Below, piece after piece: positions 5,971-49,100 of a stretch of 64,000 nt of DNA (within the stretch, counting starts at the first letter, position 1; each line of letters starts with the position of its first letter). Under the pieces are notes generated by a model that saw only the letters and a list, made by a program, of their open reading frames with translations, was not told the origin of the DNA and searched no databases. The position numbers and the translations under genes are program-made. Source of the stretch: Calditrichia bacterium (GTDB taxonomy: Bacteria > Calditrichota > Calditrichia > RBG-13-44-9 > J075); NCBI GenBank assembly GCA_028284905.1, contig JANQQU010000056.1:1-64000 (forward strand), in the 5' to 3' direction.

Positions 5971-6009
5971 TGGGTACTCCTGGATTTTGGATCATTTGTA
6001 GCTTATATT

Positions 6010-6164
6010 TCGTTGTTCGTTGTTCGTTGTTCGTTGTTCGTTGTTCGTTGGTTTTTGCTTTTAGTGAAGATGGTTGAGTCCTTCAGAAGAAATTCTGAGA
6101 AAGCCTTATCCGCAGGCTTGACAAATTTGAAAAACGAGTAACGAACAACTAACAACGAATCACT
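6010..6164. repeat. Heptamer repeat array forming an inverted pair
   Basis: About six tandem copies of a CGTTGTT heptamer occupy 6010-6050. The reverse-complement type (ACGAACAACTAACAACGAAT) follows at 6137-6156, so the two blocks could pair as a long stem. The intervening sequence shows nothing else. The same repeat style recurs near 150, 27740, 36385 and 37625. Confidence 0.75.
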
Positions 6165-26592: not shown

Positions 26593-27375
26593 ATGATTAG
26601 AAAAATAACAGCAAAAGAATATATCACCCCGCTTCGGGAAGGCGGTTCCTTACCGGCGGTTATTCGTGCAGATGATGATGAATTATATGCGATGAAATTT
26701 GTCGGCGCCGGGCAGGGGGCAAAAGCGTTAATATCGGAATTGATTGCCGGAGAAATCGCCCGTCAGCTCGGATTTCGAATTCCGGAAATTGTGTTTATTG
26801 AGTTGGACCCGGTGGTTGGGCAAAGCGAACCGGATGCGGAAATTCAGGATTTGCTGCAGGCCAGTGCAGGACTAAATCTGGGAATGACATTCCTTAGCCA
26901 CGCTTCATCTTTTACATTGCTGGCGCCCCCGAAACCCACGATCGAATTTGCCTCCCGCCTGGTTTGGTTCGATGCTTTTGTCACCAATGTGGATCGCACG
27001 CCAAGAAACGTGAATATGATGGTTCATGAGAATGAAATCTGGTTGATTGACCATGGCGCATCTCTCTATTTTCAGCATAATTGGCAAGATCATATTCGCC
27101 AGAGCGAGACGCCATTTGTGATGATTAAGGATCACGTCCTGCTACCTTTAGCTAGTGAACTTCGAACAGCAGAAGAAACATTGAAAACGAAATTGAATCG
27201 TGAAGTATTCGAAAAGATCGTAGCGGAAATTCCTGAGAAATGGTTACCCATTGGGGAGAAGTTTTCATCTGCGGAAGAATGCCGAAACGCCTATGTCGCG
27301 TTTTTGCTGCATCGTCTGGAGAATTCGGAAATTTTTCTAAAGGAGGCGGAGCGTGCCCGATCTCTGCTCGTTTGA
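26593..27375 (+). CDS. HipA-like kinase (HipA_2 family)
   Basis: 260 aa, much shorter than classical HipA (about 440). The kinase core is visible: a probable ATP-binding lysine at Lys35 (LYAMKFVG), catalytic-loop NVDRTPRNVNMM with Asp134 and Asn139, and the metal-binding WLIDHGASL with Asp153. No HipB-like DNA-binding antitoxin is adjacent. Instead the 3' end overlaps a DUF3037 gene by 23 bp, a pairing seen repeatedly in bacteria. The target of the presumed kinase is unknown; toxin activity is possible but not shown. Confidence 0.82.
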   Translation: MIRKITAKEYITPLREGGSLPAVIRADDDELYAMKFVGAGQGAKALISELIAGEIARQLGFRIPEIVFIELDPVVGQSEPDAEIQDLLQASAGLNLGMTFLSHASSFTLLAPPKPTIEFASRLVWFDAFVTNVDRTPRNVNMMVHENEIWLIDHGASLYFQHNWQDHIRQSETPFVMIKDHVLLPLASELRTAEETLKTKLNREVFEKIVAEIPEKWLPIGEKFSSAEECRNAYVAFLLHRLENSEIFLKEAERARSLLV

Positions 27376-27736
27376 ATATGCGATTATCCGCGTGGTGCCA
27401 CAGGTAGAACGGCAGGAGTTTCTTAATGCCGGCGTGGTCCTGTTTGCAAAAACCCGGAATTTTCTCGATGTCCGTATCGATAAGAACATCGCGCGTCTGG
27501 CACATTTCGCACCATCAGCCGACCGGCAAAAAGTGCAAGAGCAATTACAGGCGATAGAAACTATTTGTGCCGGTGGTGCAGCTGCGGGATATTTTGGCGG
27601 ACTGAGTCAATCGGAGCGATTTAACTGGATTGTTGCCCCAAGCAGCGATATCATTCAATGTTCGCCGGTCCACACCGGATGTGGAAAAGACCCGGCAAAA
27701 GAACTGGATGCACTTTACAAATTGTTAGTTAAATAA
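27353..27736 (+). CDS. DUF3037 protein paired with the HipA-like kinase
   Basis: 127 aa. The start MPDLCSFEYAIIRVVPQVERQEFLNAGVVLF and the downstream LSQSERFNWIVAPSSDIIQCSPVHTG are characteristic of DUF3037. It begins inside the last 23 bases of the HipA-like gene in another frame, with AAGGAGGCGGAGCG just upstream, so translation is probably coupled. Function of the family is unknown; its constant association with HipA_2 kinases suggests a partner, substrate or antidote (inference). The stop lies 15 bases into a 194-bp duplicated segment. Confidence 0.82.
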   Translation: MPDLCSFEYAIIRVVPQVERQEFLNAGVVLFAKTRNFLDVRIDKNIARLAHFAPSADRQKVQEQLQAIETICAGGAAAGYFGGLSQSERFNWIVAPSSDIIQCSPVHTGCGKDPAKELDALYKLLVK

Positions 27737-27915
27737 AGCTCCAAGTTCAAAGTTCAGAGTTCAGGGTTCAAAGTTAAATCAACTCTGAACTCTGAACTCT
27801 GAACTTATTAATGTTCTTCCTTCGCATCCCGTGCCATCAGAGCGGCCATGGCAACATGCGGATTTTTCTCATGAAAAAGCGCCTGATAAACCTGCTCGGC
27901 GATCGGCATCTCCAC
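27722..27915. repeat. 194-bp direct duplication, copy 1
   Basis: Covers the last codons of the DUF3037 gene, a heptamer array (AGTTCAA/AGTTCAG type with inverted partner) and the 3' end of a gpsA variant. It is followed without gap by copy 2. The copies are of identical length but differ at many positions and in heptamer count per arm. Confidence 0.9.
27808..27915 (-). pseudogene. Truncated second gpsA 3' end (35 codons)
   Basis: Reading leftward from 27915, 35 codons plus a stop give VEMPIAEQVYQALFHEKNPH...KEEH, identical in protein to the same stretch of the intact gpsA. The seven base differences from the intact gene are all at third codon positions and silent. The fragment has no start and no upstream part. 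The silent-only divergence shows it came from a functional gpsA of a closely related strain, not from decay after local duplication. Confidence 0.85.
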
Positions 27916-28109
27916 TTGTTAGTTAAATAAAGCTCCAAGTTCAAAGTTCAGGGTTCAAAGTTGAATCAACTCTGAACTTTGAACCCTGAACTCTGAACTT
28001 ACGAATGTTCTTCCTTCGCATCCCGAGCCATAAGAGCGGCCATGGCGACATGTGGATTTTTCTCATGAAAAAGTGCCTGATAAACCTGCTCCGCGATAGG
28101 CATCTCCAC
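27916..28109. repeat. 194-bp direct duplication, copy 2
   Basis: Begins with the same TTGTTAGTTAAATAAAGCTC as copy 1 and runs into the genuine gpsA coding region. Its left heptamer arm has one unit fewer and its right arm one unit more than copy 1. Confidence 0.9.
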
Positions 28110-29000
28110 ACCATGTTTTTGATATAGTTGATGGATAGATTTCGTCGTTGTTACCCCTTCCGCAACCATTACCATTTCGTCAAGTACCTGGGTAAGAGAC
28201 TTTCCTTTGCCAATCGCTTCGCCCACAAAGCGATTCCGGCTGTGTTGGCTCATACAGGTTACAATAAGATCACCAATTCCTGATAATCCGGAGAACGTCT
28301 CCGCTTGGGCACCCATGCTAACGCCGAGACGGGTTATTTCGGCGAGCGCGCGGGTGATCAGTGCAGCTTTCGTATTGTCTCCGAAACCGGCACCATCACA
28401 GATACCGGCGGCAATTGCAACGACATTCTTCAGAGAACCGCCGTATTCAACACCGATAATATCGTTGCTGGAATAAACGCGGAGATAGTCCGCCAGAAAA
28501 AGATCACGCACTGTCCGGGCAGTATTCAAATTGGTCGAGGCTGATACCAAAGCAGTAGGAATTTCCCGGCTAACCTCTTCTGCATGACTGGGCCCATAAA
28601 CCGTTGCAATTCGATCCATGGAAATATCCAGCACTTCCGAGATAACTTCGGACATCCGTTTTAGCGTATCGTTTTCGATTCCTTTCGATGCATTGATGAC
28701 AATCTGATTCGGAGAAATATGCGCTTTTAGTCCCTTACAGGTCTGCCGCATCGCTTGAGAGGGCACAACTAACAAGACGAAATCAGCATCTTTTGCAGAG
28801 GCTAAATCGCCGCTGAGCTGTAAATTATCCGGGAGATCGACACCGGGCAGGTAGAGCGGATTTTTCCGCTCCGCCTGCATCTGGGTAAGCTGGTCTCGGT
28901 CATAGACCCACAAAGTTACATCGAAGTTTTTTTTCGCCAGCACCAGCGCCAGGGTTGTTCCCCAGCTGCCGGCGCCAATCACGGAAATTTTTGCAGACAT
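27999..29000 (-). CDS. gpsA: NAD(P)+-dependent glycerol-3-phosphate dehydrogenase
   Basis: 333 aa, full length. It reduces dihydroxyacetone phosphate to sn-glycerol-3-phosphate, the backbone for phospholipids. Dinucleotide-binding VIGAGSWGTTLALVLA at the N-terminus, then VINASKGIE, YGPSHAEEV, the catalytic lysine region YGGSLKNVVAIAAGI and ALITRALAEITRLG. All family motifs are intact. It starts 1 base after the purC stop, in the order plsY-purC-gpsA, so glycerophosphate production and acylation are in one operon. Its 3' end is partly duplicated downstream. Confidence 0.97.
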   Translation of the reverse strand: MSAKISVIGAGSWGTTLALVLAKKNFDVTLWVYDRDQLTQMQAERKNPLYLPGVDLPDNLQLSGDLASAKDADFVLLVVPSQAMRQTCKGLKAHISPNQIVINASKGIENDTLKRMSEVISEVLDISMDRIATVYGPSHAEEVSREIPTALVSASTNLNTARTVRDLFLADYLRVYSSNDIIGVEYGGSLKNVVAIAAGICDGAGFGDNTKAALITRALAEITRLGVSMGAQAETFSGLSGIGDLIVTCMSQHSRNRFVGEAIGKGKSLTQVLDEMVMVAEGVTTTKSIHQLYQKHGVEMPIAEQVYQALFHEKNPHVAMAALMARDAKEEHS

Positions 29001-31783: not shown

Positions 31784-33322
31784 ATGATTTCAAAGATAAT
31801 TTCAGCAGCTTTAATCGGTATAGATGCACACCTGGTAGATGTCGAAACCAGTCTGGAGCGCGGCTTGTTCGGGTTTGCCCTAGTCGGCTTGCCGGACTCG
31901 GCGGTGAAAGAAAGCCGGGAGCGGGTAATTGCTGCCATCAAAAACAGCGGTTACGATTTTCCTTTAAAGCGAATCACCATCAATCTGGCGCCGGCGGATA
32001 TTCGCAAGGAAGGCGCCGGTTACGACTTGCCGATTGCCATCGGTATTCTTGCTGCGTTTGGGCAAATTCCGGAAACGCGCCTGGGGGATCACCTCATCGC
32101 CGGTGAATTGGCGTTGGATGGCAGCTTACGTCCGGTGCCGGGCGTGCTCTCCATGGCCTGGCAGGCGAAACGGCGCGGATTGAGTGGTATCATTCTCCCC
32201 GAGGAAAATGCCCGCGAAGCCGCCATGGTGAAGGAAGTTGCTGTATATCCGGTAAAAACGCTGCGCCAGGCAGTGGACTTCCTTTCCCACGCAGAAGAAA
32301 TCACTCCCTTTAAAATCGACATGGAAAGTATTTTTGAAGTGAGCCGTCAATATCCGCTGGACTTTCATGACGTGAAAGGGCAGGTGCATGTCAAGCGTGC
32401 CCTGGAAGTTGCTGCTGCCGGCGGCCACAACATCATCATGATTGGCCCACCGGGCTCGGGAAAGACCATGCTGGCGAAACGCCTGCCGACTATTCTACCG
32501 ACGATGACCTTAGAAGAAGCGTTGGAAACGACGAAAATCCATTCAGTGGCTGGCTTGCTGCCTCCGGAGAAGGCGATGATCGCCACCCGCCCGTTTCGTT
32601 CGCCACACCATACGATATCTGATGCCGGGCTCATTGGAGGAGGGCGTTATCCGCGCCCCGGTGAAGTGAGCCTGAGTCATCATGGGGTACTCTTTCTCGA
32701 CGAACTGCCGGAATTCAAAAAGAATGTGCTGGAAGTAATGCGTCAGCCGCTGGAAGATGGGCAGGTGACCATCTCCCGCGCCGCATTGACGATTACCTAT
32801 CCGGCGAACATTATGCTTGCCGCGGCGATGAATCCTTGTCCTTGCGGATATGCCACCGATCCCAAAAAAGAATGCAATTGCGCCCCACCATTAATCCAAC
32901 GTTACATCGCTCGCATCAGTGGCCCTTTGCTCGATCGCATCGATATCCAGATAGAAGTACCAGCGGTGAAATACGATGAACTGGCGAAAGAAGCGGGGGG
33001 AGAAAAATCGACGGATATTCGTCAGCGAGTACAGAAAGCGCGTAGCACCCAACAGCAACGATTTAAAACAAGCCCTCACTTGTTCTGCAATGCCGACATG
33101 CATCCACGGGAAATCCGCGAATTCTGCAAAGTGGATAGGGAAGGGCAGGAGTTGTTGAAAATGGCCATCAATAAACTGGGCCTTTCCGCCCGTGCGTATG
33201 ACCGTATTCTAAAAGTCGCCCGCACCATCGCCGATTTGGCTGGGGAAAGTAATATTCTGCCGGCGCATATCAGCGAAGCCATTCAATATCGTAGCCTGGA
33301 TCGAAACTTATGGTCGGGGTAA
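31784..33322 (+). CDS. comM: ComM/YifB-family Mg-chelatase-like AAA+ ATPase
   Basis: 512 aa, standard. An N-terminal ribosomal S5-like fold ([30 protein letters not shown]) precedes the AAA+ domain with Walker [16 protein letters not shown], the [13 protein letters not shown] loop, Walker [12 protein letters not shown] and the cysteine-rich [17 protein letters not shown]. The C-terminal Mg-chelatase helical domain ends the protein. ComM is a hexameric helicase that promotes branch migration in natural transformation. Cytoplasmic. A strong AGGGGGAAAG lies before the ATG. Confidence 0.95.
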
Positions 33323-33406: not shown

Positions 33407-36400
33407 ATGAAGCAGAGCTTTCATAAGCCCTTCCGGTTTTGGGGTTTGTGCAATTGGATATATTGTCTGTTCTTTTCTGCAGGGATATGGGCAGTGATTT
33501 ACGCCCAACCGCAAACAAACCTGCCTATTAATGAATCCGGTTTGCCCTTCATTCAAAATTTTAGTCCGAAAGACTATGGCAGCGCTCATGCCCAAAATTG
33601 GGCGGTTGTCCAGGACACGCGTGGCATTATTTACATCGCTAATAATCTGGGAATACTGATATACGACGGTGTTTCATGGCGGCTCGTTCCAACCAATTCT
33701 ACAGCGAGGGCCCTGGCAATCTCGGAGAATGGCCGTATTTTTGTCGGTTGCCGAGATGATTTTGGTTATCTGGCGCCGGATTCAACCGGGCAATTGCAAT
33801 TTGTCTCTTTACTTAAGGAGCTACCTGAAGCGTATCATAATTTTGGTGTGGTGCACGGTGTAAAAGTGACTGCGGAGGGCACATATTTTAAGGCTGCTCA
33901 AATTTTATTCCGTTGGAAAAAAGAGACAACTGAAGTTACCGGTATCACTGAGAACAAGGACGCTCCATCCGTGAGGGGGACGGTGAGCGTTTGGTCGGCG
34001 CAAACACGATTTATTCGACTATTTTCCACTCATAAAGGCATTTATGTTAATCAACCGACATTCGGGCTGATGAAGGTCGAAGGAGATTCGCTGGTTATGG
34101 CAGCAGGTGGGGAACGTTTTGCCCAGGGATCTGTCTATTTCATGCAGGATGTGCCTACGCATACCGAATCATCCGGCATGCGCATTTTAGCCGGTTCTCA
34201 CGCACATGGACTTTTTTGGTATGACGGTCGGGTCTTCGAACCCTTTTATCTTGAAGACGCTACCGCCAAGGAGTTAAAGGTGACGGGGTTGAGAGGCAGT
34301 ATATTATTGAATGATGGCACTCTTGCAGTGCGCACTCGCAGATTTGGGCTTCTGATTATCGATCAAAATGGCCGTTTGCGGCAAAAGGTAAACCGAGAAG
34401 CCGGTTTGCGCAGTCTGAATATCAGTGGTTTTTTTCAGGATCGCGAAAACGGCTTGTGGCTGGCCCAGGGCAGCGGAGTGGCCAGAGTGGAATTGCCCTC
34501 GCGTTTTTCTTATTTCGGCGAAGCATCCGGACTGTTGGGCAGTGTTCTTTCTATCAGCAGGCATAATGGAGAGCTATATGTTGCGGGCAGCCTGGGGGTT
34601 TTCAGGTTAACGACAGATATTTCAGCAAAGTCTGAGCCGCTTTTTAAGCGTTTCGAAGGTGTACTCGGCAGCACCTGGGCGCTGTTGTCAATCGGGAAGA
34701 CCCTTTTGATTGGCGGCGAAAGAGCCATTTATACTATTTCAGGTGATCAGGTTGAGAAAATAAACAGCCTGATGTCAAGGTATTTCTATCGTTCAACATA
34801 TCATCATGATTTGGTTTACGTCGGGCTGAACGGTGGACTGACAATTCTGAAAAAACAAAATGGCGAATGGTTGACTCGCCATGTTGCCGGAGTTACCGAA
34901 CAAATACGGAGTATCGTTGAGGTTAATCCCGGAGAGCTTTGGCTGGGGACTGGCAATAAAGGGGGCGCATTACATGTTAGAATTCCCGATTTGAGTAATA
35001 CTGAATCGGCCGAATTAGAATCTCCGGAGATTTTGGCAGAAGTGAAGCGTTATGGCAGTGAACATGGTCTTCCGGGCACCCGCTTCACCCGGGTTTATCC
35101 GACGGGAGGCAAAGCGATATTCGCGACAGACACTGGTTTGCGAAGCTTTAATGAAGAAAAACAGTATTTTTTCCCCGATTCTTCTTATGGTGCGATATTA
35201 GCCGACACGACCCGGATTGTCAGCCGGTTTGAGGAGGGCGCCGATGGTAAGTTTTGGGTGAAGACTACGAAGGACCATCGCCGGGAAACCGGTGTAATCA
35301 TACCGCAGAAAGATGGCAGTTATCTTTGGGATAGTAAGCCTTTTCTGCGCATCGCGGATTGGGGCAGCGTTTATTGCATTTATCCTGACCCGCTTGATGA
35401 GGATATTGCCTGGATTGGTGGCCCGGAAGGTCTTGTGCGTTATGATCAATCCATCGAGCGGGATTATGATGCTGATTTTCCGGCACTGATTCGCCGGGTG
35501 ATTGCCGATGGAGATTCGATCATCTTTTACGGAGAATCATCACCAGCAGCTTTAACAGATGGCCCGATTTTAGAATACAAGGATAATGCGCTGCGCTTCG
35601 AATATGCCGCGCCGACTCTTGATAACCCGGAAGAAAACAATTACCAGGTTTATCTCGAAGGTTTTGATAAAACCTGGTCGCCATGGACGACCGAGACCAA
35701 AAAAGACTACACGAATCTCCCGGAGGGGAACTACACATTTCGGGTGCGCGCAAAAAATATCTACGATCATCCCGGCAGCGAAGCGCATTTTTCATTCGAG
35801 ATTTTAAGACCCTGGTACCGAAGCTGGTGGGTATACAGCATTTACGGCTTACTTATTTTTACCTTTTTCTGGGCCATTCGCCGCTATGAAATGGGGCGGC
35901 AGCGCTTTAAACACGATGCCGAAATACGCGCGCAGGAAGCGGAGAAACTGCAGGAAGTTGACGCGTTGAAATCCCGTTTCTTTGCTAATATTTCTCACGA
36001 ATTCCGCACACCGCTAACCTTGATTATGGGCCAGACCGGCAATGTGCTCACGAAAGTGCAAGATCCGGATATGAAATCCCAATTGCAGATGTCCATGCGC
36101 AATGCCAATCGACTGCTTCGGCTGATCAATCAACTACTCGATTTATCGAAAATTGAAGCCGGTGGCATGACGCTGAAAGCGTCGCCGCAAAACATCGTTC
36201 CCTTGCTCCGCAGCCTGACTTCCTCATTCGAGTCTTTCGCCCGGAAAAAGGGCATCGGCCTGAAGTTTGATTGTGCTCACGAGAACATCATCGTCAATTG
36301 TGAGTTGGACAAAATCGAGAAAATTATCTATAACCTGCTCTCAAATGCGCTGAAGTTTACGCCGGAGGGGGGGACGGTGGGTGTACAGTTATCAGTAATC

Positions 36401-37618
36401 AGTAAACAGTTATCAGTTAACAGTGAACAGTTGTCAGTTAACAGTGAACAGTTATCAGTTGTCAGTGAACAGTTGTCAGATTTGGGGGGAGGGAATCTGG
36501 AGAGTCATTTATTGGTTGCTGTGCGGGATAATGGTATTGGTATTCCGGCGGATCGCCTCCCGCACATTTTTGATCGTTTTTACCAGGTGGATGCCTCGCA
36601 GACTCGGGAACAAGAAGGGACTGGTATTGGTCTCTCATTAACGAAGGAACTTGTGGAGCTTCATGTTGGCAGCATTTCTGTGGAGAGCCAGGAGGGCGTT
36701 GGCAGTACATTCAAAATTGAATTGCCGGTCTTGAGTGAAGCCGATTATAGCAGCGCGATATTGGAAGAAGAAGCCGAGGCGAGCGAGCGAGAGTTTGCGG
36801 TTGAAACAGTCTATGATGATTTTGCCTCAAATAGCAATCCCGCTGCCGGTTTGCAAGGAGAAACTGCCGGGGAGATTATTCTTGTCGTCGAAGATAATGC
36901 TGATGTGCGGGCGTATATCCGGCAAAACCTCGTAGACGATTATCGCATCGTCGAAGCCGCGGATGGGGAAGACGGATTTGCGAAAGCGCAGGAATTTATG
37001 CCGGATCTCATCATCAGCGATGTGATGATGCCGAAAGTGGATGGCTACGAGCTGGCCCGCCAGATCCGCAGTAATGAACTTACCAGCCACATACCCATTA
37101 TTATGCTGACGGCAAAAGCAGCGGAAGCGGAAAAACTGGAAGGGCTGGAAACCGGTGTTGATGCCTACCTGGTGAAGCCATTCAGCACGCAGGAATTGCA
37201 GATACGCATCCGCAAGCTGATCGAAATACGTCAGGCATTGCTAGCGAAGGTGCAGGAAAAACCGGTCATCTCTGCATCAAAAGTGATGGTGACATCCGTT
37301 GACCAGCAATTTCTTGAGCGGATGCAAAGTATTGTCGAGGAGAACATTGAAAATGAAAATTTCCAGCTTGAAGACCTATGCCGCGAAATCGGCATGAGCC
37401 GCAGCCATCTCCACCGCAAACTGTCCGCACTCCTCGGTATTTCACCAGCCCATTATATTCGCCGTATCCGCATGGAACGGGCCCGGCAACTCCTCGAAGA
37501 TAAAGCCGGCAACGTTTCCGAAATCGCCTTGCAAGTCGGCTACGCCAGCATCGCCACTTTTTCCCGAGCCTTTCGGGATACCTTTGGGGCACCGCCCTCG
37601 GAGTTTTTGAAAAAATAG
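33407..37618 (+). CDS. Hybrid two-component sensor kinase/response regulator with AraC output (HTCS)
   Basis: 1403 aa. An N-terminal signal/anchor (residues ~15-35) and a large periplasmic sensor of two-component-regulator propeller repeats are followed by a Y_Y_Y domain (about 720-800), a transmembrane helix (about 806-826), a HisKA domain with phospho-acceptor His864 (NISHEFRTPLT), a HATPase domain, a receiver domain with Asp1205 (LIISDVMMPK) and an AraC HTH domain to the end. In the HATPase domain, between the N-box (NLLSNALKFTPEGG) and the DNGIGIP box, residues ~993-1025 are a heptad repeat (QLSVNSE type) encoded by a heptamer DNA array. This membrane-spanning sensor-to-DNA arrangement often controls polysaccharide or surface-protein genes in FCB bacteria. 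The triplicated secreted-protein genes downstream are candidate targets (inference). Confidence 0.94.
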   Translation: MKQSFHKPFRFWGLCNWIYCLFFSAGIWAVIYAQPQTNLPINESGLPFIQNFSPKDYGSAHAQNWAVVQDTRGIIYIANNLGILIYDGVSWRLVPTNSTARALAISENGRIFVGCRDDFGYLAPDSTGQLQFVSLLKELPEAYHNFGVVHGVKVTAEGTYFKAAQILFRWKKETTEVTGITENKDAPSVRGTVSVWSAQTRFIRLFSTHKGIYVNQPTFGLMKVEGDSLVMAAGGERFAQGSVYFMQDVPTHTESSGMRILAGSHAHGLFWYDGRVFEPFYLEDATAKELKVTGLRGSILLNDGTLAVRTRRFGLLIIDQNGRLRQKVNREAGLRSLNISGFFQDRENGLWLAQGSGVARVELPSRFSYFGEASGLLGSVLSISRHNGELYVAGSLGVFRLTTDISAKSEPLFKRFEGVLGSTWALLSIGKTLLIGGERAIYTISGDQVEKINSLMSRYFYRSTYHHDLVYVGLNGGLTILKKQNGEWLTRHVAGVTEQIRSIVEVNPGELWLGTGNKGGALHVRIPDLSNTESAELESPEILAEVKRYGSEHGLPGTRFTRVYPTGGKAIFATDTGLRSFNEEKQYFFPDSSYGAILADTTRIVSRFEEGADGKFWVKTTKDHRRETGVIIPQKDGSYLWDSKPFLRIADWGSVYCIYPDPLDEDIAWIGGPEGLVRYDQSIERDYDADFPALIRRVIADGDSIIFYGESSPAALTDGPILEYKDNALRFEYAAPTLDNPEENNYQVYLEGFDKTWSPWTTETKKDYTNLPEGNYTFRVRAKNIYDHPGSEAHFSFEILRPWYRSWWVYSIYGLLIFTFFWAIRRYEMGRQRFKHDAEIRAQEAEKLQEVDALKSRFFANISHEFRTPLTLIMGQTGNVLTKVQDPDMKSQLQMSMRNANRLLRLINQLLDLSKIEAGGMTLKASPQNIVPLLRSLTSSFESFARKKGIGLKFDCAHENIIVNCELDKIEKIIYNLLSNALKFTPEGGTVGVQLSVISKQLSVNSEQLSVNSEQLSVVSEQLSDLGGGNLESHLLVAVRDNGIGIPADRLPHIFDRFYQVDASQTREQEGTGIGLSLTKELVELHVGSISVESQEGVGSTFKIELPVLSEADYSSAILEEEAEASEREFAVETVYDDFASNSNPAAGLQGETAGEIILVVEDNADVRAYIRQNLVDDYRIVEAADGEDGFAKAQEFMPDLIISDVMMPKVDGYELARQIRSNELTSHIPIIMLTAKAAEAEKLEGLETGVDAYLVKPFSTQELQIRIRKLIEIRQALLAKVQEKPVISASKVMVTSVDQQFLERMQSIVEENIENENFQLEDLCREIGMSRSHLHRKLSALLGISPAHYIRRIRMERARQLLEDKAGNVSEIALQVGYASIATFSRAFRDTFGAPPSEFLKK
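36385..36479. repeat. Heptamer tandem array inside the kinase ATPase domain
   Basis: Thirteen uninterrupted heptamers of consensus WCAGTNR (ACAGTTA, TCAGTAA, ACAGTGA and so on) fill 36385-36475. The reading frame stays open, so three heptamers give seven residues and the array is translated as a degenerate seven-residue repeat. Confidence 0.93.
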
Positions 37619-37624
37619 GTGAGT

Positions 37625-37774
37625 GCGTTGTTCGTTGTTCGTTCTTCGTTGTTCGTTTTTCGTAAAATAGATTGTGTAGCTTAAACTCAAGCCTACCATT
37701 CTTGGGGAAAACGATATCAACAATCAACGAATTTCGATCAACGATCAACGATCAACGAATTTCGATCAACGAAT
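37625..37774. repeat. Heptamer repeat blocks after the hybrid kinase gene
   Basis: Copies of a CGTTGTT-type heptamer at 37625-37661 and of its inverse (GATCAAC, AATCAACGAATTTC) at 37717-37774, giving an inverted pair like that at 6010-6164. The rest of the spacer up to 37915 repeats GAGACAAATTG twice (37793-37845) and shows no gene. Confidence 0.75.
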
Positions 37775-38584: not shown

Positions 38585-38744
38585 AACGTTTCATTATGAT
38601 CATGCAATATCAGGTCTTTAAGAAAATAAGCATCTTAAACCAAAAAGGAACAATGATATGGCAGAGAAAAAAAATTCGAATAAAACGGTTGTTGATGACC
38701 GAAAAATACACTTTTACAAGCGACAAAGAATAAAGGAGAAAACG

Positions 38745-41700
38745 ATGAAAAGATTTTGGAAAAATGTTCTGGGCGCCACCATCGCACTGATCTGCTGTTT
38801 ACCGCTGATGGCCTTTGCCCAGTTTTCCCACATGTTTACAAACACCGCCCACATTGATGATGGAGGCGTTGCAAGGTGGATTTCTGTAGATGCTAATGGC
38901 ACGGTTTTTCTTTCGAACAATGATGAAGGGCTGCGCGCCTATACCTACGGAGGCTCATCTTTTACCAATACTGCACATATTGACCCGGGCGGGATTACAA
39001 AAGGTGTTGCGTTCACTGCAGACGGCACCGTAATTCTCGCAAACGGATATTCGGGTCTACGCGCCTTAAGCTACGACGGCTCATCCTTTACCAGCACTGC
39101 ATCTATTGATCTTGCAGAAGATGCAACAGCTGTCGCGGTGAATGCTGATGGTACTATTTTTGTTGTAAACTCATTCGCAGGCCTACGCGCCTTTAACTAT
39201 GACGGCTTATCCTTTACCAGCATCGCCCATATTGATAATGGCGGATCTGCAAGTGATGTCGCACTGGGGGCTGATGGCACCATTTTTACTGCGAACAGGA
39301 GTGACGGCCTGCGTGCCTATAGCTATGACGGCGTTTCCTTTACCAACACTGCACACATTAACCAGGGGGTGGCATACAGCCTTGCAATCGGTGCAGACGG
39401 CACCATTTTTGTCGCAAGCGGATATTCGGGGCTACACGCATACAGCTATGACGGCTCATCCTTTACCAATACCGCCCACATGTATAATGGGAGAGCGGCA
39501 GATGCTGTCGCGGTGGGGGCAGATGGCACCATCTTTCTGGCTAGTTTTAGAGGAGGGCTGTACGCCTACACCTACGACGGCTCGTCCTTTACCAACACCG
39601 CCCACATTGGTCAGGGTATGGATATGACTGACGTCGCTGTAGGGGCTGATGGCACCATTTTTCTGGCAAATTTTCACGACGGTATGAGTGCTTATCGCTA
39701 TTTTGAAAAAAATACCTACATCGTCACCAACACTAACGATGCCGGCAGTGGATCATTCCGTCAGGCCATTCTTGATGCCAACGCACACCCTAATATTGAT
39801 CCCAGCACGCCGGATACCATCAAATTTAATATTGATGGTGCCGGGCCGCATTCTATTCAACCGGGTTCCGCATTACCGGATATCACCGATGCGGTAATCA
39901 TCGACGGCACAACTAATCCCGACGCCAACCATAGCGCCTGGCCGCCAACGCTTTCGATTGAATTGAATGGTAGCAATGCCGGAAGCGCGAGTGGATTAAC
40001 CCTGCTGAGCGATGCCAGCGGCTCCACCATTCGCGGACTGGTTATCAACGGGTTTGATTACAACGGTATTGATCTGGTTTACAGTAGCAACAATCTTATA
40101 GAATGCAATTTTATCGGTACCAATACAGCTGGCACGGCGGCTATCCCTAACCTGGAGTCAGGCATATTGGTTAATAAGAGTACTCGGAACACCGTCGGTG
40201 GCACCAATGCTGGCGCCGGCAACCTTATTTCCGGAAATGGCGATCATGGTATCTTCATTGTTCTTTCAGATTTGACGTTGGTGCAGGGTAATTATATCGG
40301 AACGAATGCAGCTGGCACGGAGGCTATCCCCAACGAAAATATCGGTATACTTAATGATGTCGCTAACCGCAATACCATCGGCGGCGGCAGTGCTGTGGCC
40401 GGCAACCTCATTTCCGGAAACGGAGATCGTGGCATCTTGATTCGGGATTCAGATTCGACTTTAGTACAAGGTAATAATATCGGAATGAATGCAGCTGGCA
40501 CGGAGGCTATCCCCAATGAAGAATCGGGCATGGAATTGATACGAAGTGACCGCAGCACCATCGGCGGTAGCGAGGAGGGCGATGGAAATATTATCGCATA
40601 TAATAATGGAGCTGGTCTTTTTCTCGACAGCGGGCTTCGCAACCGTATTCTTGGCAATGCCATTTTTAATAACGGCACATTGGGCATCGATATTGCCGCT
40701 GAGGGGGTAAACGCCAACGATCCCGGCGATGACGACATTGGTGCGAACGATCTGCAGAACTTCCCGTTGCTCACCACAGCGAAAACGGATGATGGCGAGA
40801 TTACGATCTCCGGGACTTTTAACAGCACAGCGAACACCAACGGCTTTCGACTGGAGTTCTTCGCCAGCACCTCCTGCAACGGCGATCAATCCGGCAATCC
40901 GCAAAGCGAGGACTACGGCGAGGGCGAGACCTTCCTTGGTTACACCACTGTGAACACCGATGCGAACGGCGATGCCCGTTTTACCGTGAATTTAAGCGCG
41001 GATGTTGCCGTCGGTGCGTTTATCAGCGCAACTGCAACTTCGCCGGATAGCAGCACCTCGGAGTTTTCCCAATGTATTGCGGCAACGCCCCGATTCGTTC
41101 TGCTCTCTGCCATCGATATCGAAATCAGCGGCCTGCAATTATCAGATGGCGATATGCACGCCAATGACGATATCACTTTTAATAAAGGTCTCCCCGGCAC
41201 CCACACCGGCAACCTCAGTGCGGTTGACAACATCGATATCAGCAGTAAGAATACCATTGATGGTGATGTGAATGCCGGCGGTGATCTCGATAACGACGGG
41301 ACGATCAATGGCGCAGCAAACGGTGGTGCATCTGTCGACCCGGTTGATCTGCCTACCCTCGCCTCATTCACTGCGGGAACAGAAAATGTAACGGTGGATG
41401 GCGATGGTGATGTGACACTACCGCCTGGCATGAATAAAGATGTTGTCGTGGAAAGAGATGGCACTCTGCGCCTGAACGCCGGGGAATACTTTCTGGATGA
41501 ATTGGAATTTGGCACCGACACTCGCCTGATCGTCGACGTAAGCGGCGGTGATGTGGTGGTTAACATCGTCAGCGATTTGGAGTTTGGTCAGCGCATGGAA
41601 GTAAGCGTCAGTGGCGGCAGCACCTCCCGCTTTATTATCAATAGCATTCAGACTAAAAATATTGATTTTGGCCGGGAAGCAACGGTGATCGCTACCATTA

Positions 41701-42140
41701 TTGCTCCGGATGCGAAAGTTCGGGCGGGCAGCTATGTGCGCTTCAGCGGATCGATTTGTGCGAAAGATATCGTTTTCAGCACTGGTCCGGTGATTGTCGG
41801 CCACAATGCCAGTCTGCCGAAAGTAGTCGTCAATGATGAAGCAGATGTTGCTGCACTGCCGCAGGTTTTTGTGCTGGAACAGAATTACCCCAATCCCTTT
41901 AACCCCACGACTAATATCGGATTTCGGATGTCGGATGTCGGATTTGTTCAGCTGGCAATCTATGACATTACTGGGCAATTGGTGCGGACTTTGGTGAATG
42001 AACATCGTGCGGCTGGCAATTATACCGTCAGTTGGGATGCCACCAATGATTTCGGGGCAAAAGTGGCCAGCGGTGTTTACCTCTATAAGCTGCAAGCCGC
42101 GGATTTTGTGCAGGTGAAGAAGATGGTGCTGTTGAAGTAA
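38745..42140 (+). CDS. Giant secreted propeller/beta-helix protein, copy 1, with sorting domain
   Basis: 1131 aa from the ATG after AAAGGAG; a longer frame to 38658 would bury the signal peptide (MKRFWKNVLGATIALICCLP). Domain order: seven ~43-residue repeats with YDGSSFTNTAHID and GADGTIFLAN (residues ~22-320), fitting a seven-bladed propeller; a CSLREA-like start (VTNTNDAGSGSFRQAILDAN, ~325); a right-handed beta-helix with three GTNAAGTxAIPN units; a beta-sandwich (EDYGEGETFLGYTTV); a conserved region from ~783 (DIEISGLQLS...) resembling DUF7305; and a sorting domain from ~1040 (QNYPNPFNPTTNIGF ... KKMVLLK). Expected at the cell surface or outside. Function unknown; adhesion or matrix-building is a guess. 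First of three tandem paralogues. Confidence 0.88.
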   Translation: MKRFWKNVLGATIALICCLPLMAFAQFSHMFTNTAHIDDGGVARWISVDANGTVFLSNNDEGLRAYTYGGSSFTNTAHIDPGGITKGVAFTADGTVILANGYSGLRALSYDGSSFTSTASIDLAEDATAVAVNADGTIFVVNSFAGLRAFNYDGLSFTSIAHIDNGGSASDVALGADGTIFTANRSDGLRAYSYDGVSFTNTAHINQGVAYSLAIGADGTIFVASGYSGLHAYSYDGSSFTNTAHMYNGRAADAVAVGADGTIFLASFRGGLYAYTYDGSSFTNTAHIGQGMDMTDVAVGADGTIFLANFHDGMSAYRYFEKNTYIVTNTNDAGSGSFRQAILDANAHPNIDPSTPDTIKFNIDGAGPHSIQPGSALPDITDAVIIDGTTNPDANHSAWPPTLSIELNGSNAGSASGLTLLSDASGSTIRGLVINGFDYNGIDLVYSSNNLIECNFIGTNTAGTAAIPNLESGILVNKSTRNTVGGTNAGAGNLISGNGDHGIFIVLSDLTLVQGNYIGTNAAGTEAIPNENIGILNDVANRNTIGGGSAVAGNLISGNGDRGILIRDSDSTLVQGNNIGMNAAGTEAIPNEESGMELIRSDRSTIGGSEEGDGNIIAYNNGAGLFLDSGLRNRILGNAIFNNGTLGIDIAAEGVNANDPGDDDIGANDLQNFPLLTTAKTDDGEITISGTFNSTANTNGFRLEFFASTSCNGDQSGNPQSEDYGEGETFLGYTTVNTDANGDARFTVNLSADVAVGAFISATATSPDSSTSEFSQCIAATPRFVLLSAIDIEISGLQLSDGDMHANDDITFNKGLPGTHTGNLSAVDNIDISSKNTIDGDVNAGGDLDNDGTINGAANGGASVDPVDLPTLASFTAGTENVTVDGDGDVTLPPGMNKDVVVERDGTLRLNAGEYFLDELEFGTDTRLIVDVSGGDVVVNIVSDLEFGQRMEVSVSGGSTSRFIINSIQTKNIDFGREATVIATIIAPDAKVRAGSYVRFSGSICAKDIVFSTGPVIVGHNASLPKVVVNDEADVAALPQVFVLEQNYPNPFNPTTNIGFRMSDVGFVQLAIYDITGQLVRTLVNEHRAAGNYTVSWDATNDFGAKVASGVYLYKLQAADFVQVKKMVLLK

Positions 42141-42160
42141 TCATGCATTGCGTTCGAAGG

Positions 42161-42207
42161 CAGCCGTTTTGCGGATAGCAGCAGGCATTAAATCTGCAAA
42201 GCGACTG
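42161..42207 (+). other. Spacer hairpin between copies 1 and 2
   Basis: CAGCCGTTTTGCGGAT (42161-42176) pairs with ATCTGCAAAGCGACTG (42192-42207) with two G-U pairs and one mismatch. Homologous to the hairpin at 46088-46137. No T-run follows. Confidence 0.65.
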
Positions 42208-42258
42208 TTGCTGAGTGAAAAAATACTTTTATAAACGAGAAAAATTCAAGGAAAAAAG

Positions 42259-45200
42259 ATGAAGAGTTTTTGGAGAATCCTTAGATACGCCGCAATCGTG
42301 TTGATTTTACCGGCTACGGTATTTGCCCAGTTGTCCCATATTTTTACCAACACTGCTCATATCGATGAAGGAGGTTTTGCAATAGACGTCACGTTGGGCG
42401 CAGACGGCACTATCTTCCTCGCCAACGGCGATGACGGCCTGCGTGCTTATAGTTACGATGGCTCATCCTTTACCAACACCGCCCACATTCATAATGGCGA
42501 ATTAATAATAGGCGTCGCACTGGGCGCAGACGGCACTGTATTTGTGGCAAAATCAGAAGACGGTCTTAGCGCTTATAGCTACGACGGTTCATCCTTTACC
42601 AATACTGCCAACATTGATGATGGGGGATTTGCCGAAGATGTCGCCGTAGGTGCAGACGGTACTGTCTTCCTCGCGAATGGTGATGGCGGCCTGCTTGCCT
42701 ATAGTTACGACGGCTCATCCTTTACCAACACCGCCTTCATTAGTAATGGGACGGGATTTGCCGAAGATGTCGCCGTGGGAGCAGACGGCACTGTCTTTCT
42801 CGCGAACATAACTGAAGGCCTGGGCGCCTACAGCTATGACGGTTCATCCTTCACCAATACCGCCCATATCGATAATGGCGGGCAGGCGTTTGGCGTTGCA
42901 GAGGGACCTGATGGCACAATCTTTCTCGCGAATTTTGATGATGGCCTGCGTGCCTATAGCTACGATGGCTCATCCTTTACCAATACCGCCCACATTGATG
43001 ATGGCGAGTTTGCATTGGGCGTTACAGTGGGTGCAGACGGCACAATTTTCCTTGCGAACAATAATGGCGGCCTGTTTGCCTATAGTTACGATGGCTCATC
43101 TTTTACAAACATCGCGCACATTAATGATGGAGATGGCGCCCGTAGTATCGCATTGGGTGCAGACGGTACTGTTTTTCTGGCGAACCAGCCTGACGGTTTG
43201 CGCGCCTATCGTTTTACTGAATTAATCAATACCTTTATTGTTACCAACACGAACGATGCCGGTGAAGGTTCACTGCGTCAGGCTATTCTCGATGCCAATG
43301 CACATGTTAATTTAGACTTTGACGTGCCGGACTCCATCAAGTTCGAGATCGACGGCGCCGGACCGCATACCATTCAGCCGAATTCTGCGTTACCGGCCAT
43401 TACAGATCCGGTGATCATCGACGGCACTACGGAGCCAGACGCCAATTGCGATAGCTGGCCGGCAACTTTAGCGATTGAGCTGGACGGTAGCAATGCAGGT
43501 AACCTGGTTACTGGTTTGACCCTGCAAAGCGGATCCAATGGTTCCACTATTCGTGGGCTGGTTATCAATCGTTTCAGTTCATCCGGTATTCTCATTTCTG
43601 ACAGTGACAGCAATAAGATTGAATGTAACATCATTGGCCTGGACATCACTGGTAACATTAGTCGGGGAAATGGTGCCAATGGTATCAGAATTATAAATGG
43701 TGCCCATTCAAATTTAGTTGGTGGCATCGAATTTGGCGCCGGTAATATCATTTCCGGCAACGGCTCAAATGGCATTTTTATAAGTGGTTCAGGTGCTCGA
43801 AACAATCGTGTCCAGGGGAACAGAATTGGCACAAACGCGGCAGGGACTGCTGATATTCAGAACAATTTCGGCGGTATATCGATTTCATTTTCCAATAACA
43901 ATCTCATCGGTGGTGCTTCCAGCGCGGCGCGCAATCTTATTTCCGGTAATATGGGGAATGCTAATACCGAGGGAGACGAAATTGGCATCTCTTTTTCCGA
44001 CAGCAACACTGTGCAGGGCAATTATATTGGCACTAATGCTGCCGGAACGGCAGCGATTACAAATATTAATGATGGGATAAGTCTCTATCAAAGCAGCAAA
44101 ACAAATATTATAGACAATCTCATCTCCGGAAACGACCAGGGAATATATTCGACTTATTCAGATTCTTCAGTCGTGCAGGGTAATTTTATCGGAACGGATG
44201 CCAGTGGAACGGTGGCGATACCAAATGAAGATGGCCTTTTTCTACTGAGAAAAACTCGTGATTTCTTGATTGGTGGCAGCGCACCAGGACAGGGGAATCT
44301 GATCTCGGGTAATTTAGGTAGTGGTATCGTTATTAGTAGTGGGGTCAGAGGCAATATTGTTCAGGGCAACCGTATTGGTACCGATATAACCGGCAGCCTG
44401 GCGCTTGGAAATGACGGAAATGGCGTCTTTCTTGGCAGCCTTTTGGGTCCCCGACCTAGCGAAGGTGCCGCTAATGTTGTGGGCGGTCTCTCAAGTGGGG
44501 CCGGAAATATTATTGCGTTCAATGGTGGCTCTGGTATCGTTATAACCAATTATGGTAATATCATATCCGGTAACGCAATATTCAATAACGGGCAACTTGG
44601 TATAGATCTGGATAGAAATGGCGTAACTGCCAATGACGAGGGCGATGACGACCTTGGCGGAAATGATTTGCAAAACTATCCGTTGCTCACATCCGCGGAA
44701 ACCGACGGTGGTGAGATAACCATCACCGGCACCTTCAACAGTACACCGAACACCAATGATTTCGTGCTGGAGTTCTTCGCCAACACTGTCTGCAATGGCG
44801 ATCAGAACGGCAATCCGCAAAGCGATGATTACGGTGAAGGCGAGATTTTCCTCGGTTACACCACCGTGAGCACTGATGCTAACGGCGACGCCAGCTTTTC
44901 GGTTAATTTAACCGCAGATGTTGCCGCCGGCGCGTTCATCACTGCAACAGCGACCTCACCGGATAGCAATACCTCGGAGTTCTCGCAATGCATCGTGGCA
45001 GCTGATGGCTCGCTTCACAGCTTCCTCCTGCTCTCTGCGATGGATATCGAAATCAGCGGTCTGCAATTATCTGCCGGCGATATGCACGCGAACGATGATA
45101 TCACCTTTAATAAAGGCTTCCCCGGCACCCATACCGGCAACCTCAGTGCTGTTGACAACATCGATATTAGCAGTAAGAATACCATCGATGGTGATGTAAA

Positions 45201-46068
45201 TGCCGGCGGTGATCTTGATAACGATGGAACGATCAACGGTGCAGCAAACGGAAGTGCCTCTGTCGAACCTGTCGATCTGCCCATTCTCACCCCATTCACT
45301 GCCGGCACAGAAGATGTAACGATTCCTGGTGGTTATGATGTAACACTGCTTCCCGGCATGAATAAAGATGTCGTTGTGGAAAGAGACGGTACCTTGCGCC
45401 TGACCGCCGGGGAATACTTTCTGGATGAATTGGAATTTGGCACCGACACCCGCCTGATCGTCGATGTGAGTAGCGGTGATGTGGTTGTCAATATTGTCAG
45501 TGATCTAGAATTTGGTCAGCGCATGATCACTAGTGTGGAAGGCGGGAGCACTTCCCGATTTACTATCAACAGTATTCAGACTAAAAATATTGATTTCGGT
45601 CGGGAAGCAACAGTGATTGCTACCATTATCGCCCCGGATGCAAAAGTGCGGGCGGGCAGCTATGTGCGCTTTAGCGGATCGATGTGTGCGAAAGATATCG
45701 CTTTCAGCAGCGGCCCGGTGATTGTCGGTCACAATGCCAGTCTGCCGAAAGTGGTCGTCAATGATGAAGCGGACGTTGCCGCGCTGCTGCAGGTTTTCGC
45801 GCTGGAACAGAATTACCCCAATCCCTTTAACCCCACGACCAATATCGGATTTCAGATTTCCAACTTCGAGTTTGTTCAGTTGAAAATTTATGACATCAGC
45901 GGGCGATTGGTGAAGACGTTAGTGAATGAGCGTCGTGCGGCTGGTAATTATACCGTTAGCTGGGATGCTACCAATGATTTCGGGACAAGAGTGGCCAGTG
46001 GTGTTTACCTCTATAAGCTGCAAGCCGCGGATTTTGTGCAGGTGAAGAAGATGGTTCTGCTGAAGTGA
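42259..46068 (+). CDS. Giant secreted propeller/beta-helix protein, copy 2, with sorting domain
   Basis: 1269 aa, signal peptide in residues 1-22 (FWRILRYAAIVLILPATVFAQ). Same order of domains as copy 1. The propeller again has exactly seven SFTNTAHID-type blades (to ~320). The beta-helix region (from ~420) has five GTNAAGT/GTDITGS-type units rather than three, which accounts for the extra ~140 residues. The conserved region from ~921 (SAMDIEISGLQLSAGDMHAN) and sorting domain (~1180-1269) are nearly identical to the other copies. Ribosome-binding site AAGGAAAAAAG. Probably same function in a variant form. Confidence 0.88.
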   Translation: MKSFWRILRYAAIVLILPATVFAQLSHIFTNTAHIDEGGFAIDVTLGADGTIFLANGDDGLRAYSYDGSSFTNTAHIHNGELIIGVALGADGTVFVAKSEDGLSAYSYDGSSFTNTANIDDGGFAEDVAVGADGTVFLANGDGGLLAYSYDGSSFTNTAFISNGTGFAEDVAVGADGTVFLANITEGLGAYSYDGSSFTNTAHIDNGGQAFGVAEGPDGTIFLANFDDGLRAYSYDGSSFTNTAHIDDGEFALGVTVGADGTIFLANNNGGLFAYSYDGSSFTNIAHINDGDGARSIALGADGTVFLANQPDGLRAYRFTELINTFIVTNTNDAGEGSLRQAILDANAHVNLDFDVPDSIKFEIDGAGPHTIQPNSALPAITDPVIIDGTTEPDANCDSWPATLAIELDGSNAGNLVTGLTLQSGSNGSTIRGLVINRFSSSGILISDSDSNKIECNIIGLDITGNISRGNGANGIRIINGAHSNLVGGIEFGAGNIISGNGSNGIFISGSGARNNRVQGNRIGTNAAGTADIQNNFGGISISFSNNNLIGGASSAARNLISGNMGNANTEGDEIGISFSDSNTVQGNYIGTNAAGTAAITNINDGISLYQSSKTNIIDNLISGNDQGIYSTYSDSSVVQGNFIGTDASGTVAIPNEDGLFLLRKTRDFLIGGSAPGQGNLISGNLGSGIVISSGVRGNIVQGNRIGTDITGSLALGNDGNGVFLGSLLGPRPSEGAANVVGGLSSGAGNIIAFNGGSGIVITNYGNIISGNAIFNNGQLGIDLDRNGVTANDEGDDDLGGNDLQNYPLLTSAETDGGEITITGTFNSTPNTNDFVLEFFANTVCNGDQNGNPQSDDYGEGEIFLGYTTVSTDANGDASFSVNLTADVAAGAFITATATSPDSNTSEFSQCIVAADGSLHSFLLLSAMDIEISGLQLSAGDMHANDDITFNKGFPGTHTGNLSAVDNIDISSKNTIDGDVNAGGDLDNDGTINGAANGSASVEPVDLPILTPFTAGTEDVTIPGGYDVTLLPGMNKDVVVERDGTLRLTAGEYFLDELEFGTDTRLIVDVSSGDVVVNIVSDLEFGQRMITSVEGGSTSRFTINSIQTKNIDFGREATVIATIIAPDAKVRAGSYVRFSGSMCAKDIAFSSGPVIVGHNASLPKVVVNDEADVAALLQVFALEQNYPNPFNPTTNIGFQISNFEFVQLKIYDISGRLVKTLVNERRAAGNYTVSWDATNDFGTRVASGVYLYKLQAADFVQVKKMVLLK

Positions 46069-46087
46069 TCATGCATTGCCTTCAATG

Positions 46088-46137
46088 ACAGCCGTTTTGC
46101 GGATAGCAGCTGGGAATAAAATCCGCAAAACGGCTGT
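46088..46137 (+). other. Spacer hairpin between copies 2 and 3 (17-bp perfect stem)
   Basis: ACAGCCGTTTTGCGGAT (46088-46104) and ATCCGCAAAACGGCTGT (46121-46137) are fully complementary around a 16-nt loop. It lies 20 bp after the stop of copy 2 and about 50 bp before the start of copy 3. Possible terminator/attenuator, mRNA-stabilising stem or repeat. Confidence 0.8.
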
Positions 46138-46188
46138 TGATGAACGAAAAATACACTTTTAGAAACGAGAAAAAATAAAGGAAAAATT

Positions 46189-49100
46189 ATGAATAGATTT
46201 TGGAAACATTTTGTATGCGCTACCATCGTGCTGAGCTGTTGTTTACCGTTGACTGCATTTGCCCAATTGTCGCACCTGTTGATTAACACGGCACATATTA
46301 ATAATGGAAATACTGCGCTAGACGTGGCTACGGGCATTGATGGCACTGTTTTTCTCGCAAATATGCAAGACGGCTTGCGTGCCTATAATTACAACGGTGC
46401 ATCCTTCACTAACACCGCCCACATTGATGATGGGGGACTTGCGTTTGGCGTTGCAGTGGGGGCTGATGGTACCGTTTTTCTTGCGAATCATAATGATGGT
46501 CTGCGCGCCTATAGCTACGATGGCTCATCCTTCACCAACACCGCCCATATTGATAATGGAGGCGTTGCAAATGGCGTTGCTGTGGGCGCTGACGGCACCA
46601 TTTTTCTCGCAAACGGAGATGACGGTCTGCGCGCCTATACTTACGACGGCACATCCTTTACTAACACTGCCCACATTGATAATGGGGGGAGAGCTTTAGA
46701 CCTTACAGTTCATTTTGACGGCACCATTTTTCTTGCGAATCTGGATGACGGTTTACGCGCCTATAGTTATGATGGTTCATCCTTCACTAACACCGCCCAT
46801 ATTAATGATGGGGGAACTGCTGCTGATGTTGCATTGGATTTTAACGGCATTATTTTTCTGGCGAACAGTAGTGATGGCTTGCGCGCCTATAGCTATGATG
46901 GTTTATCCTTCACTAACACCGCTCACATTGGTTACCCGGTGAGTGATGCGCTTGGTGTCACGGTCAGTGTAGACGGCACTGTTTTTCTCGCGAACCTGGA
47001 AGACGGCCTGCTCGCCTTTCGCTACGATGACTCATCCTTTACCAACACTGCCCACATTGATAATGGAGGGGAAGGATATGATGTTGCAATTGGGCCAGAC
47101 GGCACCATTTTTCTGGCGAACAACTTTGACGGCTTACGCGCCTATCGTTATTTGGAAATCACCCATACTTTTATCGTCAGAAACACCAACGATGCCGGTT
47201 CAGGCTCTTTGCGCCGGGCCATCATCGATGCCAACGCTATACCGAATATCGCTCCTAACACGCCGGATATCATCCGTTTCGATATCGAAGGTCCCGTACC
47301 GCATACCATTCAGCCAGATTCTGCATTACCGGATATCACCGACGCCGTAATCATCGACGGCACTACGGAGCCGGACGCTAATTGTGACACCTGGCCGGGA
47401 ACACTCTCTGTTGAGCTGGACGGCACAAATGCCGGTGTTGGCGCTAGTGGCCTCACTTTAAACAGCGGCGCCAGCTTTTCGACTATTCGTGGATTGGTCA
47501 TCAACCGTTTCGATGCAAATGGTATCCTTGTTGTAGAAAGTAACAGGAGCAAAATCGATTGTAACTTCATCGGTATTGATGTCACCGGCACAGTTGATCT
47601 CGGGAATGGCAATGCCGGCGTAAAAATCGCCAATAATGCCTACGGAATTACAGTTGGCGGGATCGAAGAGGGCAGCGGTAATATCATTTCCGGTAACGGT
47701 GCTTATGGTGTTGCTATTATTGGAACGCCTGATAGTGATGTTCGGGAAAACCGGGTACTGGGTAACAGAATCGGTACAAACGCAGCAGGCACTGCTGCTA
47801 TTCCGAATGATGAAGGCGGCGTGGAGGTTGAATACGCCAAGAGAAACCAAATTGGTGGCTTCTCCGACTGGACACGTAATGTTATTTCCGGTAATGGAGA
47901 TGGCGGCTCCGACGTGAAAGGTATTTATATCGCTAATGCAGATAGCAACCTGATTCATAACAATTATATCGGCACAAATGCTGCGGGGACAGCCGCGGTA
48001 GGAAATGCCGCATTCGGTATCAGGATTAGTGCAAGTACCTTTACACGTGTTTTTAGCAACGTTATTTCCGGTAATAACGCGGGGCTGTTTATTTATTCAT
48101 CAGAGAGTACAGTCGTTCACAGTAATTTTATTGGCACGGATGTGAGCGGTACGATGGCTATACCTAATAATTTTGGCATTGTTACAACGAGAGGTACTCG
48201 TGCTTCCGCAATTGGTGGCACTTTCCCGGGACAAGGGAATCTGATATCGGGTAACATAAGATCCGGTATTTCTATGAGTAATGCTACAGACAATATTATC
48301 CGGGCGAATCTTATCGGAACGGATATAACCGGTAGTGCAGCACTTGGTAACGGTGAAGAGGGTATCGTGATTAACGGCGGAAATGCCAGGTTCGGGGTTA
48401 GTCGCAATAATTTCGTGGGAGGCCTCTCAAATGGTGCCGGTAATATTATTGCATTCAATGGCGGTAATGGTATTGGATTAAGTGATCGTGCTGGCAGTAG
48501 TAATGCTATATCCGGTAACTCTATTTTCAATAATGGATTGCTCGGGATTGATTTGGGAATATTCGACTCAATTGGTGTCTCCGCCAATGATCAAGGGGAT
48601 AGCGATATGGGCGTGAATAATTTCCAAAACTATCCACTACTTACATCAGCGGAAACGGACGGCAGCGAGATTACCATCACTGGGACCTTTAACAGCACAG
48701 CGAACACGAATGATTTCGTGCTCGAGTTTTTCGCCAACTCTGTCTGCAACGGCGATCAGAACGGCAATCCGCAGAGCGATGACTACGGTGAGGGCGAGAC
48801 TTTTCTCGGATTCACCACCGTGAACACCGATGCTAACGGCAATGCCAGCTTTTCGATAAACTTAACTGCGGATGTTGCCATTGGTACGTTTATCAGCGCA
48901 ACCGCGACTTCACCGGATAGCAGCACCTCGGAGTTCTCGCAATGCATTGAAGCAACCGACGGCTCGCTTCATAATTTTCTCCTGCTCTCTGCGATGGATA
49001 TTGAAATTAGCGGCCTGCAATTATCAGCTGGTGATATGCACGCCAATGACGATATCACCTTTAACAAAGGCTTCCCCGGCACCCATACCGGCAACCTCAG

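Follow-up and report, generated by a model that had tools for sequence, protein, structure and literature searches.

Two copies of a 194-bp unit lie in direct tandem in a genome of 8.55 Mb assembled in 93 contigs. Both contain the 3' end of gpsA, in one case as part of the complete gene and in the other as a truncated tail, and the locus raises the question of how the 35 codons that these two ends share came to diverge at silent positions only. The window analysed was the whole 64,000-nucleotide stretch carrying the locus (positions 1 to 64,000 of contig C67, genome G000).

Structure of the tandem unit

Tandem Repeats Finder reported a repeat of period 194 at 27722-28109 (2.0 copies, score 625) and self-comparison of the window returned the pair with an E value of approximately 3e-64. 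Together with alignment of the copies, this confirmed the tandem duplication of equal-length units proposed in the original prediction. Each copy is 194 bp in length, 0 bp separates the two, and the unit runs from the stop codon of a DUF3037 gene through a heptamer hairpin to the 3' end of gpsA. Copy 1 (27722-27915) comprises the last four codons and stop of the DUF3037 gene, a hairpin (27743-27806) folding at -38.8 kcal/mol (z -9.9) and a 5'-truncated gpsA tail of 35 codons followed by TAA TAA (27805-27915, minus strand). Copy 2 (27916-28109) comprises the repeated DUF3037 end, a hairpin (27937-28000) folding at -41.1 kcal/mol (z -8.7) and the 3' end of the functional gpsA. The copies meet between positions 27915 and 27916 at a novel junction, CATCTCCAC followed by TTGTTAG, where the flanking bases share no match and hence no microhomology.

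Both flanking genes are intact by Pfam despite the duplication. The gpsA gene (27999-29000, minus strand) encodes a full-length NAD-dependent glycerol-3-phosphate dehydrogenase of 333 amino acids with PF01210 and PF07479 over cut-off; its closest relative found, in the Calditrichia MAG L024, is 66% identical. The convergent DUF3037 gene (27353-27736, plus strand) is intact to its end and matches PF11236 across the full 118 positions. The truncated gpsA copy is not assigned any function. The hairpins matched only microRNA models of Rfam, below gathering scores, and these matches were taken as chance; a scan with strict loop and T-run rules gave no intrinsic-terminator-like site at either hairpin.

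The first 36 bases of the unit, including the DUF3037 stop codon, are identical in both copies and 36 bases is also the length of the longest exact match between them. The shared gpsA portion (VEMPIAEQVYQALFHEKNPHVAMAALMARDAKEEH) differs in 7 of its 35 codons, and the alignment bore out the earlier statement that all seven differences are silent and at third positions. Two features had gone unmentioned. The last gpsA codon and stop read TCG-TAA in the functional gene and TAA-TAA in the truncated copy, a change of two substitutions that moves the stop codon, and the hairpin arms differ by one substitution and two 7-bp indels of opposite sign. Since these indels compensate one another, the equal length of the copies is a coincidence. 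Over 26 bases, the left hairpin arm of copy 1 and the right arm of copy 2 are perfectly complementary.

Silent differences in the truncated gpsA tail

A plain local tandem duplication followed by drift would leave the truncated copy free to change, and the silent pattern would then be a chance outcome, singled out by a reader in search of it. For these 35 codons, the probability that a random change is silent is 0.254, and it rises to 0.405 per observed difference when one copy is free and the other constrained; under the latter condition, seven silent differences out of seven have a probability of 0.0018. In how typical its Pro, Ala, Val and Leu codons are of the genome, the truncated copy surpasses 97.6% of gene tails, the opposite of decay, while the tail of the functional gene stands at the 24th percentile. 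These figures support the original contention that drift in a truncated copy would not yield silent changes alone. On the other side, diverged near-tandem duplications occur often in the sampled genome, one of them (C21:9933-12857) has acquired a frameshift, in line with drift, and the density of differences at the gpsA locus is alike in the coding part (7 of 105) and the rest (3 of 76; P = 0.52). Drift after local duplication is considered unlikely, given the silent pattern and the preferred codons, albeit with a real share of the probability.

The truncated tail could also be what is left of an earlier duplication of the entire gpsA gene, selection having acted on both copies before one lost most of its length by deletion. 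Silent divergence would fit two functional genes, and some further tails of this genome resemble remnants of paralogues (the histidine-kinase tails of C64 and C21:1075-2634). Such a history requires a long-lived duplicate and a deletion whose endpoint coincides with the repeat unit, however, and when the 8.55-Mb genome was searched with the duplicated region, no second gpsA tail was placed elsewhere among the matches listed; the other listed matches fall in or near the query's heptamer hairpin. We regard an older gpsA duplication as improbable.

Assembly and the source of the second tail

The observed layout is also what two strain contigs placed one after the other would produce, and the fusion of two strains at an unresolved overlap, one of the two alternatives of the original prediction, had to be weighed for a genome in 93 contigs. 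Exactly 99 bases were common to contig ends in 48 pairs among the 157 ends compared, and no gap Ns occurred in 160 sampled stretches; Ns were confined to ten wholly-N short contigs and two further stretches, which were taken as masked. This combination has the appearance of an unscaffolded de Bruijn assembly with k = 99. The contig name of L024 begins with k99, a form of name given by MEGAHIT. A false join would require either a scaffolding step or a recurring junction word able to mislead the graph, and in the window no word of 12-21 bases spanning the junction occurs a second time. Arrays of period 7 cluster at contig ends, as graph breaks would lead one to expect: 9 lie within 250 bases of an end, a density of 2.28 per 10 kb, compared with 0 to 0.25 in more internal sequence. 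No allelic contigs of a sister strain stood out in the sampled part of the genome. An end-to-end assembly join is thus unlikely, and only a small residual chance stays with it.

The other alternative, recombination with a sister lineage, is the one that we favour. On balance, the tandem duplication is probably real and chromosomal, with one of its gpsA tails derived from a different functional allele and the donor presumably a diverged sister lineage of similar codon usage. None of the 30 genomes searched was of the same genus and a sister-lineage origin is thus favoured rather than proven; the selection of this case for its silent pattern also weighs against it. By one route, incoming allelic DNA would have been integrated by homologous recombination at one side and joined at the other without homology. 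By a second route, a plain duplication would have come first, and a later homologous exchange with another strain would have replaced the tail of one copy.

The distribution of differences bears on the choice between these routes. According to hand-made site counts, 7 of 15 four-fold degenerate sites differ, compared with 0 of 16 two-fold sites (P = 0.0024). Outside the 35 codons, hand counts gave 3 substitutions, two of them located in the last codon, in approximately 76 aligned bases, in addition to the two 7-bp indels; by the same counts this remainder differs from the four-fold sites with P = 7e-5. Divergence is much lower in the intergenic part than at the four-fold sites, which counts against import of the whole unit from a diverged strain, so that either the second route or homogenisation of the hairpin would be needed. 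An exchange of one gpsA tail after duplication, ending near the hairpin, would fit the low intergenic divergence. Alternatively, template switching might homogenise the hairpin arms, a process described for RNA hairpins (PMC8794818).

The genome contains genes for ComEC and DprA, both of which also match in non-competent controls such as E. coli, and a ComM/YifB-like gene of the Mg_chelatase family at 31784-33322; ComM is linked to transformation. These three genes at most make DNA uptake possible. Ku was not found in the genome. Elements of the icd type are integrated into the 3' end of a gene, whereas 0 bp separates the two copies of the unit here, with neither an integrase nor an element between the gpsA tails. 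Homology-facilitated illegitimate recombination (HFIR), with its one-sided homology and blunt novel junction, would give the gpsA layout. HFIR belongs to naturally competent hosts; ComEC and DprA make competence here no more than possible, both also matching in the non-competent controls. HFIR junctions are described as mostly having 3-10 bp of microhomology and a deletion similar in size to the insertion (PMC3240628). The gpsA layout works like HFIR yet lacks both of these usual features, as its junction is without microhomology and the locus has a net gain of 194 bp with intact flanking genes. Transformation-generated merodiploids, described as tandem duplications of approximately 100-900 kb arising through uptake of homologous DNA and use of a chromosomal repeat (PMC3784515), are likewise tandem, but the gpsA unit is 194 bp long and has no repeat at its junction.

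Repeats and tail duplications elsewhere in the genome

Period 7 was over-represented among short-period arrays, with 35 arrays in the sample compared with 0-14 for periods 5, 6, 8, 9, 10, 11 and 13. Families included CAACGAA, CAGTTAT, GGAATTC, AGGCTTT and AACTCTG, located at 6009-6050, 36381-36479 and 37626-37774 of the window and on further contigs of the genome; one array is read through within a histidine-kinase gene. A large repeat region at 38690-50020 of the window contains 126-base units and multi-kilobase diverged copies. Heptamer direct repeats of the TAACTGA type have been described in Beggiatoaceae, Cyanobacteria and Bacteroidetes (PMC4679880). Intergenic period-7 arrays are similarly scattered in this genome and some units are TAACTGA-like, but here there are multiple heptamer families, some of which form hairpins. 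A literature search for heptamer STRR repeats with all terms combined gave no paper. As far as shown, the heptamers are the filling of the duplicated gpsA/DUF3037 unit and not its cause. Hairpin-driven duplication was rejected: inverted repeats were somewhat better in 13 hand-picked near-tandem pairs than in 120 random intergenic segments (of 382), a difference that was not significant (P = 0.065).

Among 1104 genes with flanks, a match to the 3' end was found downstream in six (four at ≥93%, two at 71-74%) and a match to the 5' end upstream in two (74-77%); four tails against no heads at ≥93% were too few to claim a 3'-end bias. Codon counts covered the four recent tails and two older ones that were added, the two matches at 71-74% being left out. 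Beside gpsA, the recent tails were those of a sulfatase (C57:143311; 4 silent, 2 replacement), an M16 peptidase (C21:9933; 1 silent, 0 replacement and a frameshift) and C55:5293 (2 silent, 0 replacement), while the older tails were C21:1075 (9 silent, 9 replacement) and a histidine kinase (C64:642; 6 silent, 4 replacement). Pooled, the four recent tails had 14 of 16 codon differences silent (P = 1.5e-4). The three others, which were picked without regard to silent changes, gave 7 of 9 (P = 0.027; counting the frameshift, 7 of 10 and P = 0.059) and lean in the same direction as gpsA. In control genes tail duplications numbered 0 of 292 against 4 of 1104 here, too few to contrast, and among 57 gpsA loci of relatives the sole tail match was a weak one on the opposite strand (L035, 47%), which was not taken for a duplication.

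The idea that gene tails are retro-copied to remote places in the genome was also rejected: comparison of 1389 tails with non-gene space gave no convincing distant copy; in approximately a quarter of the genome, the distant matches were repeats, contig-end matches and one paralogous kinase tail. Four histidine-kinase-like 3' tails, not all of one gene, stand in a row with hairpins between them at approximately 4080-4600 of C64 (L148), and the contig of the gpsA duplication also carries a 308-bp intergenic near-tandem pair, 93% identical (C67:101873-102494, L071).

A broader reading, in which this lineage would repeatedly stack 3' ends with a diverged functional allele by one-ended integration of sister DNA at intergenic ends rich in hairpins, sparing 5' ends and with gpsA as one of at least four cases, seems to us a long shot. 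Most likely, the locus is a scar-like tandem duplication with an allelic second tail, modest and ordinary in kind. If the truncated copy is a sister allele, divergence cannot be used to date tandem duplicates and, in this uncultured lineage, scars of this type document recombination among diverged strains. Overlaps of contig ends together with junction k-mers offer a way to distinguish a scar like this from an error of assembly.
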